Shown here: positions 6,693-49,268 of the stretch, piece by piece
Layout: every line of letters starts with the position of its first letter
Position numbering within the stretch: the first letter of the stretch is position 1
Program-made: the position numbers and the translations under genes
The notes under the pieces: generated by a model
What the model saw: only the letters and a program-made list of their open reading frames with translations
What the model was told of the DNA's origin: nothing
Database searches by the model: none
Assembly (NCBI GenBank): GCA_947473355.1
Contig: CANJCQ010000006.1
Span: 1 to 64,000 of the forward strand
Source of the DNA: Sphingomonadaceae bacterium
GTDB lineage: Bacteria > Pseudomonadota > Alphaproteobacteria > Sphingomonadales > Sphingomonadaceae
Reading direction: 5' to 3'
DNA: 64,000 bases

Positions 6693-7163
6693 TCAGAGCC
6701 TGCGGCCCAGCTTCTTCTCGACCTGCTGGCGTTCCCATTCAGGGCCGAACCAGGGCAGCACATCAAAGACACGCAGGCCACGCAGGGTCAGGCCAAGGCC
6801 CCAGCCAAGCAAAGGGTAAATGAACCAGATGTGCTTTGGCGTGGTCATCAGGTTGAGGGCAACCAGCCCGCTCATCACCACGACGTAGGCGATCAGGCCA
6901 TAGTAAAAGCGCCTGACCTCGCGGACGTGGCTGAATGCAAGGGCAACTTCGGTTTGTTCGGGACTTCTGGCAATATCACGCACGGCTTCCTCCTGGAGGT
7001 GTGAGAAATCGACATCGAACGCAGCGCCCAATGCCTTGAATGATTCGAGACTTGCCGATTGCCCCTGCTCGATCCGCTGGATCGTGCGGACATTGAGGCC
7101 GCTAAGGTCGGCCAGTTGTTGCTGGGACCATCCCTTTTTAAGCCGCATCTCCTGAACAATCAT
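6693..7163 (-). CDS. XRE-family transcriptional regulator with C-terminal 2TM domain
   Basis: MRLKKGWSQQQLADLSGLNVRTIQRIEQGQ HTH plus two hydrophobic helices. Confidence 0.9.
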   Translation of the reverse strand: MIVQEMRLKKGWSQQQLADLSGLNVRTIQRIEQGQSASLESFKALGAAFDVDFSHLQEEAVRDIARSPEQTEVALAFSHVREVRRFYYGLIAYVVVMSGLVALNLMTTPKHIWFIYPLLGWGLGLTLRGLRVFDVLPWFGPEWERQQVEKKLGRRL

Positions 7164-7745: not shown

Positions 7746-7779
7746 CCAGCGCATTCAATAGGCCAGCGCCTTCAATAGG
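7746..7779. repeat. 17-bp tandem duplication spanning the 3' end of the DUF2807 gene
   Basis: CCAGCGCATTCAATAGG / CCAGCGCCTTCAATAGG, 16/17 identical. Confidence 0.9.
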
Positions 7780-8485
7780 AATGTTCGATTGAGCCGACCC
7801 CGTGGATCTGGCTGTTCAGCACCTCTGGCTTGCGGTGCAACGTGATATCTCCCGCACCCGCAATCGTGGCATCGACTTTGCCCGACGCATTGATATCGAC
7901 ATCGCCGGCACCGGCTATGCGGACCGTAGCATCCCTGGCTTCGACTTCGGAGAGATCGATGTCGCTTGCGCCTTTGGCATCAACTGTCAGCGCCGTGACT
8001 TTGCCCGTGCCTTCAAGGTCGAGCGCGCCTGCGGTATCAATCGAGAGCTTTGGTTGATCGAGCCCAGTTAGTTCCGCTTTGCCCGCCCCTTGCAGCACCA
8101 GGTCTGGAAGCTGCGGCGCGGTGATGGTCACTTCGACTCTGCTCCGGTGTATGGCGAAACTCCCGTCCAGCGACAGGCGGCCATTTTCCCAGCGTAGCGC
8201 TTTCATCAGCTTCTCGGGGCCCTCCACCACCATGCCTGCAGCGGGGCCCTTGTGGTATTTGAGCGATACCGGCGCGGCAATGGTCATGGTTTCGATGCCC
8301 TCGAAGGCAAAACTGCGCGAAACACGCGGCCCGGAATCCTTGTCGGTGTCGAATGAGAAATGATGGCCGCCATCCTTCTTGATGTGCGCCAGCAATTCGG
8401 CTCCGCCAATCACCCAGGCCGAGCTGAGCAAAATGATGGCAAAGACCATGCCGCTGGCAAAAACGATTGCGAGTTTGCGGATCAT
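7772..8485 (-). CDS. DUF2807 domain-containing (putative auto-transporter adhesin head) protein
   Basis: SRSFAFEGIETMTIAAPVSLKYHKGPAAGMVVEGPEKLMKAL beta-helix repeats; start MIRKLAIVF at 8485. Confidence 0.85.
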   Translation of the reverse strand: MIRKLAIVFASGMVFAIILLSSAWVIGGAELLAHIKKDGGHHFSFDTDKDSGPRVSRSFAFEGIETMTIAAPVSLKYHKGPAAGMVVEGPEKLMKALRWENGRLSLDGSFAIHRSRVEVTITAPQLPDLVLQGAGKAELTGLDQPKLSIDTAGALDLEGTGKVTALTVDAKGASDIDLSEVEARDATVRIAGAGDVDINASGKVDATIAGAGDITLHRKPEVLNSQIHGVGSIEHSY

Positions 8486-9066
8486 GACATTGCACTCCTT
8501 GCAGTTTCGGGCTCGATGGCGGGCTGGAGCACTTTGTAATGCAACCGCCCGAACCACATCAGGGCATTGACCAACACAATCGAGACAATGGTAATCAGCG
8601 CGGCAATGGCGATCGCCGCGACCATCATGCCTAAGCCGCAAAGTAGCGCTGCCGCCGGGCCGCCGGGAAAGGCGTTGAAAGGCCAGGTAATCATGATTGC
8701 GCCGCCGGCAACGAACAGGCCGAACATCGCCGCATAGAATCCGATGATCACGCCGATCATCGGCAGCAGCACCGGCAACAGGATCAATATGTCGATCGCG
8801 CCAAGCCCGAGAAAGGCGATCACCGCGCTCCAGGCTGCGGACGGCGAGCGGCCCTCCTCCCAGCGTTTGATCCCGGCTTCCAGCTTCAGTTCGCGCGCAA
8901 GCCGTCCCGGGTCACCCAGCGCTTCGGCGACTTCCGCCTCGGACCTGCCATCAGCACTGGCTGCGATGAAATGGTCGGTGTAGTCGCTGGTGATCTCGGC
9001 AATGGCGTCTGGTTGCATGCCGGCGAGGCCGCGGCCCAGCCGTTTCAGAAATTCGTCACGCGTCAT
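8482..9066 (-). CDS. DUF1700 domain-containing membrane protein
   Basis: MTRDEFLKRLGRGLAGMQPDAIAEITSDYTDHF...EALGDPGRLARELKLEAG; operon with PadR. Confidence 0.88.
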   Translation of the reverse strand: MTRDEFLKRLGRGLAGMQPDAIAEITSDYTDHFIAASADGRSEAEVAEALGDPGRLARELKLEAGIKRWEEGRSPSAAWSAVIAFLGLGAIDILILLPVLLPMIGVIIGFYAAMFGLFVAGGAIMITWPFNAFPGGPAAALLCGLGMMVAAIAIAALITIVSIVLVNALMWFGRLHYKVLQPAIEPETARSAMS

Positions 9067-9421
9067 GTTCTGTCTCCCCCGCGCTCTCCAATGGTACGCC
9101 GATTTTGCCGACCACCGCTTCGACGGCGGAGGTGAAGCTGCGCCATTCGGCGAGCTGGGTTTCCAGACTGGCGCGGCCCTGGTCGGTCAGCCGGTAATAT
9201 TTGCGGGCAGGGCCAGTGGAGCTTTCTTCGAAATAGGTCTCAACCAGCCCGTCGCTCTGCATGCGGCGCATCAGCGGGTAGATCGTCCCTTCGCCCATAT
9301 CGACAGCCCGCGCGAGCTTGCTTGCGATTTCATAGGAATAGCTGTCTGCGCGTGAGAGCAATGCCAGGACGCACAGGCCCAGCACGCCTTTCTTGAGCTG
9401 AATTTCGATTGCCTCAGGCAC
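9056..9421 (-). CDS. PadR family transcriptional regulator
   Basis: LKKGVLGLCVLALLSRADSYSYEIASKLARAVDMGEGTIYPLMRRMQSDG. Confidence 0.92.
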   Translation of the reverse strand: MPEAIEIQLKKGVLGLCVLALLSRADSYSYEIASKLARAVDMGEGTIYPLMRRMQSDGLVETYFEESSTGPARKYYRLTDQGRASLETQLAEWRSFTSAVEAVVGKIGVPLESAGETEHDA

Positions 9422-9450
9422 GCATGTTCTCCCTGGCCAAACAGGCCGCC

Positions 9451-9480
9451 GGACCGGCAGTGTGGATTCGCTGCCGGTCC
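9451..9480. terminator. 10-bp-stem hairpin downstream of urcA
   Basis: GGACCGGCAG-tgtggattcg-CTGCCGGTCC perfect arms; no clear T-run. Confidence 0.45.
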
Positions 9481-9488
9481 GCAGTCAA

Positions 9489-9809
9489 TCAGCCAGCCGG
9501 ATGATTGCCCGCAACCGCATTGGCCACGCTGGAGCGGACACTGCGAAGGGCCTGACGATAGCAGGCACTAGCCTCTGTCGAGGGAACCCGGCTTCCGGTC
9601 GTCACCTCGTCAAGTCCGCAGACCTGGCTTGCGGCGCGCGCGATGCGCCGCTCCAGCTTCTGCTGACCTGCCACAGTGGACAAGTCGAGGTCGGCATATC
9701 TCACCATCACGGACTGACCGTCCGAATTGGCAGAGGCCGCATCCGGAAGTGCGAAAATACCGACTGTTGCTGCAAGAGCGATGACTGGGACGAGTGGGTG
9801 TTTGAACAT
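9489..9809 (-). CDS. UrcA family protein
   Basis: Signal peptide then VMVRYADLDLSTVAGQQKLERRIARAASQVCG. Confidence 0.85.
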   Translation of the reverse strand: MFKHPLVPVIALAATVGIFALPDAASANSDGQSVMVRYADLDLSTVAGQQKLERRIARAASQVCGLDEVTTGSRVPSTEASACYRQALRSVRSSVANAVAGNHPAG

Positions 9810-9927
9810 GATCTTTCTCCTCAAGATACAAACAATTGGGTTGCGCTGGTCCTGCCTTGAGCGTGGCCAGCGTGATGGCTTGGTGCCGGGATTGATTCGG
9901 GTTGCGGCGCGAATCAATCTCCGGCGA

Positions 9928-10013
9928 TAGGTTATTATCTATCACAAGGTATCATGCGTAACAAGGTACCATGTTAAAAAAGGTTACATGCAAAGGAAGG
10001 TAGCTTGCAATGT
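9928..10013. repeat. array of five degenerate ~17-bp direct repeats upstream of urcA
   Basis: taggttattatctatcac / aaggtatcatgcgtaac / aaggtaccatgttaaaa / aaggttacatgcaaagg / aaggtagcttgcaatgt; AAGGT starts at 9946, 9963, 9980, 9997 (exact 17-bp period). Confidence 0.85.
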
Positions 10014-10051
10014 CTGGAATTTCCTGGGGAATTTCCTTGAGATCGGGCGTG

Positions 10052-10085
10052 AAAAAAGGGGCCGCGGTTGCCCGCGACCCCTTTT
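10052..10085 (-). terminator. rho-independent terminator of rplM-rpsI operon
   Basis: Minus strand AAAAGGGGTCGCGG-GCAA-CCGCGGCCCCTTTTTT with T-run. Confidence 0.8.
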
Positions 10086-48063: not shown

Positions 48064-49268
48064 GGCAAAAGCCACGCCCCATTCCCGGCGAAATACCGTG
48101 CGGCCACCTCGCCCCCCAGGGGTGCCAGCATCTCTTTGACTTTGTCCTTGATATGCCGCCCTCCCTCGAGGTGCGGGTAGTCGGTCGAGTAGCAATAGCA
48201 GTCGGCGACCTGCGGATAGCGCTCGAAGAAGAGCGCCAGTGGTTCGACGATGTTGTGCGGGGTCACGCGGACATTGCGCGCGAGGTATTCTGACGGGCGC
48301 AGTGACAGCTTGCCCGCCAGCCGCCGCGCGAAGACTTTTTCCGCCCACATGTCGAGGTTCTCGGCGAGCGGCCCCAGCCAGTGCGCGCCCAGTTCGATCG
48401 CGCCGAAGCGCAACATCGGGTGGCGCTCGAACACGCCGCCCAACACCATTAACATCAGGAAATGTTCGGCGGCGAGATGCGTCGAGGCCAGCGAATAGGG
48501 CTCGAAGCCGAGTTCGAACGAGAGCTTCTCGGGCGCGAAGGCCGGGGCGTCGGCCCAGGCGGCGCTGGCGAACAAGCCAAGGTCGCTGCCGACATGGGCC
48601 ATGACCGGCATATCGTTTGCCGCAGCGAGCGCCCAGAAAGGGTCGAGCTCGGGCACGGCTGGAGATAGCCCGGCGAGCGGCGAGCCGGTGTTGATCAGCA
48701 GGGCGCGGATGCCCCGGCGGATCAGCTCTTGCGTCTGTTCGATCAGGTCGCCCGCGTCGCGCGGGGCTCGCAGCATGCCGACGCCGCGCAGGCGGTCCGG
48801 GTCAAGCGCAGTGGTGCGCACGGCCCAGTCGTTCCATTCGTCGGTGGCGGCAAAACCGATTTTGGTCGCTTCGTCATGCGACAGGCCGCCGAGGAAGTGG
48901 CGCAGGCCCGCGGCAATCGGCCCGCCGCCATCGGGGGTCGAGAGGATCTGCCCCCACAGGCCGAAGCTCGGGAAGACCAGCTGGCGCGAAACGCCCATCA
49001 GGTCCAGGGCCTCCAGCCGCCGCACCATGTCGAAGGCGCCGGGTGCGCCAGTATGGCGCATGGTCCAGACGTTCTCTGACGTCATGGCGGCGTCGTCGTC
49101 GGCCTGGTCCGGGCGCAGGATATAGTCCTCGCCCATGGCGGCAATGAACGGCCCGCAGACTTCGGCGAGGCGTTCGGCAGTGGGGCCGAATATCTCGCCC
49201 CAGACGCGCGGTGGGGCGAATTCGTGGCCGTCGACGTCGAGAGTGCAGGAGGGAACGGGGGCAGTCAC
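48060..49268 (-). CDS. amidohydrolase family protein (Amidohydro_2)
   Basis: LDVDGHEFAPPRVW...MPVMAHVGSDLG...CYSTDYPHLEGG. Confidence 0.9.
   Translation of the reverse strand: MTAPVPSCTLDVDGHEFAPPRVWGEIFGPTAERLAEVCGPFIAAMGEDYILRPDQADDDAAMTSENVWTMRHTGAPGAFDMVRRLEALDLMGVSRQLVFPSFGLWGQILSTPDGGGPIAAGLRHFLGGLSHDEATKIGFAATDEWNDWAVRTTALDPDRLRGVGMLRAPRDAGDLIEQTQELIRRGIRALLINTGSPLAGLSPAVPELDPFWALAAANDMPVMAHVGSDLGLFASAAWADAPAFAPEKLSFELGFEPYSLASTHLAAEHFLMLMVLGGVFERHPMLRFGAIELGAHWLGPLAENLDMWAEKVFARRLAGKLSLRPSEYLARNVRVTPHNIVEPLALFFERYPQVADCYCYSTDYPHLEGGRHIKDKVKEMLAPLGGEVAARYFAGNGAWLLP

Follow-up and report, generated by a model that had tools for sequence, protein, structure and literature searches.

A phased array of palindromic sites as the likely operator of a padR-HAAS operon in Novosphingobium and related genera

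The promoter of a urcA-padR-HAAS-DUF2807 operon is spanned by an array of palindromic units set 17 bp apart in the 64,000-nucleotide stretch of DNA analysed here (the window), which belongs to a genome of the genus Novosphingobium. The array is palindromic, strictly phased, overlaps the promoter and is exclusively associated with padR. The sites overlap the promoter of the padR operon, which is where an operator would be expected. Very probably, the PadR protein encoded in this operon uses the array as its autoregulatory operator; it would act by repression and be released by the HAAS and DUF2807 proteins under envelope disturbance. The first gene of the operon in the window encodes UrcA, a secreted protein of unclear function whose gene is strongly induced by uranium in Caulobacter. 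The features of the locus are collected in Table 1.

Table 1. Operator units, predicted promoter elements and genes of the locus (positions in the window)
Feature	Position	Strand	Support
Operator unit 1 (distal), GCAAGCTACCTTCC	9995..10008	-	site-matrix score 15.1; array conserved in relatives
Operator unit 2 (weaker), GCATGTAACCTTTT	9978..9991	-	site-matrix score 3.7; 17 bp from units 1 and 3
Operator unit 3 (anchor, overlaps -35), ACATGGTACCTTGT	9961..9974	-	site-matrix score 20.0; most conserved unit, 43 promoters
Operator unit 4 (-35/-10 spacer), GCATGATACCTTGT	9944..9957	-	site-matrix score 19.5; conserved spacer unit
Fifth copy of the earlier note, unsupported as operator	9928..9944	-	18-bp offset; sub-threshold; unconserved; overlaps -10
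Predicted -35, TTGTTA	9959..9964	-	aligns with TTGCRT of 43 relatives
Predicted -10, TAGATA	9936..9941	-	17-bp spacer; aligns with TATACA-type element of relatives
urcA, UrcA family protein (TIGR04433), predicted secreted, ATG at 9812	9489..9812	-	NCBIfam E=1.4e-23
padR, PadR-family winged-helix regulator	9056..9421	-	PF03551 E=1e-20, 73.9 bits vs 27-bit cut-off
HAAS-domain membrane protein, overlaps padR end	8482..9066	-	PF22564 E=1.1e-10
DUF2807 (Toastrack-type / head GIN) protein	7772..8485	-	PF10988 E=3e-23

The earlier note on this DNA had described AAGGT repeats starting at 9946, 9963, 9980 and 9997, and these four copies are indeed present with an exact spacing of 17 bp. At 9942-9945 the period-17 self-match reaches 36 of 51 positions, the maximum of the window over all periods from 10 to 30 (runner-up 30), and it exceeds every value obtained in 20 first-order Markov copies of the window (at most 32) and in 2000 shuffled copies of the intergenic region (at most 30). 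The motif AAGGTANCATG taken alone, with two mismatches, occurs in the window no more often than expected (22 found vs 26 expected), so that only the tandem arrangement is significant. A fifth copy claimed at 9928 was not retained. It reads TAGGT, is offset from the next copy by 18 bases instead of 17, scores too low for the site matrix to report it and overlaps the -10 box, and relatives do not conserve the corresponding position (+34 from the anchor site). Immediately upstream of the array, two 12-bp direct copies (GGAATTTCCTGG/GGAATTTCCTTG) occupy 10016-10039. Between the array and rpsI, at about 10052-10083, the minus-strand sequence shows a GC hairpin with a run of T that resembles a terminator.

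On the minus strand the copies prove to be variants of one palindrome, GCAAGGTACCTTGC. The former description as tandem repeats was right, but to speak of direct repeats would understate the unit; likewise, the iteron-like array for regulator binding stands as a regulator-binding array at a promoter but is better described as two to four or more tandem palindromic operators. An iteron origin was rejected: the surrounding genes are rpsI/rplM and those of the padR operon, and nothing points to replication. The consensus was drawn from an alignment of 43 non-redundant promoters (A1) and reads GATACC..GCAAGGTACCTTGC..TGTACC..ACAAGGTACCTTGCATTACACAGTAGCTTGC.ATATACA. In this alignment the anchor unit is the 14-bp palindrome GCAAGGTAYCTTGC, with a right half that extends into the -35 box TTGCRT; the -10 element of the TATACA type follows 17 bp on and the spacer between the two boxes contains another unit. 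The promoter proposed earlier for the window, TTGTTA-17-TAGATA (9964-9959 and 9941-9936, minus strand), lines up with the conserved TTGCRT-17-TATACA of the relatives, and transcription is expected to start near 9929 on the minus strand. A generic scan for sigma-70 promoters and terminators gave no matches and so did not flag this predicted promoter.

The phasing of the units is rigid. When the 43 non-redundant arrays were scanned with a symmetric matrix, neighbouring units were found 17 (41 cases), 18 (7), 34/35 (29) or 51/52 bp (4) apart and at no other distance, and the same scan of shuffled sequences returned none of these phased spacings. The anchor unit shows 81% pairwise identity between genomes, whereas the DNA at -130 to -300 shows 27%, the random level. 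The array model matches both strands at one place, as expected of a dimer site. Searches of the window genome retrieved one such palindromic array and one gene of the PadR family (PF03551); the scan for similar arrays proposed by the earlier note thus led to one place only. A single-site scan of the same genome with GCAAGGTAYCTTGC (up to three mismatches) gave 522 matches vs 398 for the reversed pattern. These are mostly background, so lone operators elsewhere in the genome are not callable; near-matches to GCAAGGTAYCTTGC lie for instance at C13:19763 and C42:28300.

The array model was built from sequence alone and then searched across 196 Novosphingobium genomes, 59 of which contain a PadR orthologue. 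It was found in 57 of these 59 genomes and in none of the 137 padR-less ones, apart from one chance-level match (G121, E=0.015); the significance of the association (Fisher p ~1e-47) treats genomes as independent despite their relatedness. The exceptions are G012, where the padR locus ends at a contig edge, and G169, which has the most diverged PadR (58%) and the variant pair AAGGTAACGTGC / ATGATACCGTGC at 17 bp. The model also finds the array upstream of padR at all 80 named PadR loci, which come from Novosphingobium, Sphingobium, Brevundimonas, Caulobacter and related MAGs. The loci of Brevundimonas and Caulobacter typically carry two strong units 17 bp apart. More distant PadR proteins (36% identity), found in another family, have a related 17-bp pair, CATGCTACCTTGCATAACATGGTAGCATG, upstream of a gene whose product has a PspC-like segment, and a 17-bp pair was also found at two further alphaproteobacterial loci (L219, L220), although several remote PadRs of this set are without it. 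The comparison of orthologous promoters, by which the earlier note proposed to challenge its own reading, did not refute that reading: the array stands at essentially every orthologous padR promoter. The adjacent PadR, already named there as a possible binder, is by far the best candidate, the presence of the array tracking that of padR.

The link with urcA is looser. Most relatives have no urcA at this position and the array then stands immediately before padR, with the anchor site near -55; the array is therefore tied to padR and not to urcA. The earlier view of the array as a feature of the urcA promoter is correct for the window, where it lies before urcA, but does not extend to most relatives. 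In six genomes including the window genome, urcA comes first in the operon, between the array and padR; among these, urcA is apparently frameshifted in G207 and only its tail is assembled in G012. The regulation of urcA in the window genome could thus be incidental, since urcA precedes padR in few genomes. Nevertheless, in one MAG (G073, contamination 1%) urcA lies away from padR, next to genes resembling hisZ and purA, and has its own array (E=3e-11), while padR has another one. No other observation speaks as strongly for urcA being a true target, but this one stands alone. From the position of the array, UrcA is inferred to come under the control of the PadR repressor. A urcA gene unlinked to padR and preceded by its own PadR-type array is found at L116:3145-3516 (minus strand), in a MAG labelled Sphingomonas palustris.

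In many genomes, urcA-family genes are also found on the padR strand within ~4.2 kb of padR. At L128:3045-3992 and other Novosphingobium loci, padR-HAAS-DUF2807 is followed by a DAGK-type gene on the opposite strand and by urcA ~4 kb downstream on the padR strand. This downstream urcA was rejected as an operon member: the DAGK-type gene intervenes in the locus examined and no array was found at the gene, which is why its position is treated as synteny only and not as evidence.

The PadR signature DNA-contact tyrosines Y28 and Y48 (LftR numbering) are invariant in 10 orthologues, and both are matched by tyrosines in PDB 7wjp. The HAAS gene directly adjoins the standalone padR on its downstream side, the layout of the HAAS-PadR dyad, and it is also next to padR in Brevundimonas, Caulobacter and Sphingobium loci; in the first two genera a DUF2807 gene likewise follows padR. 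The DUF2807 protein of the window likely starts at the ATG at 8485, inside a longer ORF reaching 8641. The gap between urcA and padR contains a hairpin with a perfect 11-bp stem (CGGACCGGCAG...CTGCCGGTCCG, 9450-9481) and without a T run, which could set the urcA:padR ratio or stabilise the mRNA. Downstream of the operon, a gene at 6693-7163 (minus strand) encodes an HTH_3 regulator fused to a 2TM domain (PF13239).

A mechanism can be proposed from these features. Each 14-bp palindrome resembling GCAAGGTAYCTTGC, repeated every 17 bp or sometimes 18, would bind one PadR dimer, and neighbouring dimers would line up next to one another, covering the -35 box, the spacer and the adjoining upstream DNA. 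Because 17 bp is about 1.6 helical turns, they would lie on different faces of the DNA. The bound dimers would block RNA polymerase at the promoter of urcA-padR-HAAS-DUF2807. By analogy with related systems in the literature, the HAAS membrane protein is probably the signal input and envelope stress the signal: together with the Toastrack-type DUF2807 protein, it would sense the disturbance and release PadR, and the operon with its urcA gene would be switched on. Binding by PadR, repression and cooperativity are all proposed on this basis. The cooperative binding put forward by the earlier note is plausible from the rigid phasing. The weakness of unit 2 in the window and the divergent half-site ACCTTGC count against the reading as a PadR array. 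The latter is unlike the published PadR half-sites ATGT/ACAT and TACT/AGTA and GCAAGGTAYCTTGC does not match the published consensus ATGT-N8-ACAT, so the array was filed as a distinct specificity.

That PadR represses rather than activates would follow from the overlap with the promoter and from precedent. A role of PadR as activator, or as activator and repressor, with upstream units recruiting the polymerase, is very unlikely. It would account for the Novosphingobium units that reach upstream of the -35 box, and in Vibrio a relative of PadR, AphA, is a quorum-sensing regulator that controls genes directly (PMC6855506); the two universal units, however, overlap the -35 box and the spacer, as is typical of repression, and the homologues of close architecture, LltR and LmrR, repress themselves. 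Binding of the array by another regulator, for example an OmpR-type activator such as UzcR, is very unlikely. In Caulobacter crescentus, urcA is activated by UzcR through the m_5 motif CATTAC-N6-TTAA (PMC8963506), and a UzcR-like box, TTAA-N6-GTCATG, stands 26 bp upstream of the first PadR site in 41 named loci of the Brevundimonas/Caulobacterales type. The array units nevertheless lack the m_5 motif, whose only match in the window (up to one mismatch) is at 48449, with none near urcA, and the array is missing from the padR-less genomes although most of those have urcA. The box of these 41 loci (L145-L215) lies ~82-90 bp upstream of padR, is one mismatch from the UzcR m_5 motif and has a chance expectation of about 0.0003 per locus, which suggests joint control of these promoters with an OmpR-type activator. 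An RNA leader element, either an attenuator or a series of hairpins, would agree with inverted repeats near a promoter but is highly improbable for an array that lies upstream of the predicted transcription start and whose palindromes, being loopless, form no normal hairpin by themselves. Neutral repeats, be it a degenerate microsatellite or a chance pattern to which the imperfect copies might point, are refuted by the comparative data, the array being conserved in fixed phase across genera of different orders with randomised flanks and its self-match lying far above the shuffles.

A literature search, covering few subscription papers, found no published account of this operator or of a link between PadR and UrcA. 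Autorepression by PadR proteins has been described before, as has the pairing of HAAS with PadR; what appears new is the half-site, the strict tandem phasing and the link to UrcA. The array provides a concrete operator for the HAAS-PadR dyad, which makes the dyad proposal testable by EMSA and reporter assays in environmental bacteria that are harmless, and links UrcA to an envelope-stress operon. Arrays of two to several strictly phased units also form a natural series relating the number of tandem sites to autorepression. As a tentative and rather doubtful extension, UrcA might be an effector of a HAAS-PadR envelope-stress switch in which the copy number of phased PadR dimers, two in Caulobacterales and often higher in Novosphingobium, sets a sharp threshold, the Caulobacterales promoter joining a metal-responsive activator to an envelope-responsive repressor.

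Among known systems, the Listeria LltR operon lmo0599-lmo0600-lmo0601 is similar in its gene content, PadR being followed by a DUF1700 (HAAS-type) membrane protein and a DUF4097 (Toastrack-type) protein, and LltR represses this operon of its own 100-150 fold (PMC6624303). Contrary to the locus described here, it has no urcA, belongs to a Gram-positive host and shows no tandem operator array in the available part of its description. The HAAS-PadR dyad with Toastrack partners was proposed as an alternative to two-component systems for membrane stress, HAAS transmitting the signal to PadR (PMC11237479). The likeness lies in a HAAS protein beside a standalone PadR and a Toastrack-type protein; that study, in its accessible part, deals with proteins and gene neighbourhoods, whereas operator DNA and UrcA are features of the present locus. 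Two PadR proteins, Lactococcus LmrR (PMC4534193) and Clostridioides difficile cdPadR1 (PMC5050560), each occupy their own promoter as several dimers. The two inverted repeats of cdPadR1, one of them over the -35/-10 region, are comparable to the sites described here (PMC5050560), but LmrR and cdPadR1 use the half-sites ATGT/ACAT and TACT/AGTA without rigid 17-bp tandem phasing. Finally, the urcA promoter of Caulobacter crescentus (UzcRS, m_5) also controls a regulated urcA-family gene in an alphaproteobacterium, through two-component activation at another motif, whereas in the window urcA stands behind a PadR array (PMC8963506).
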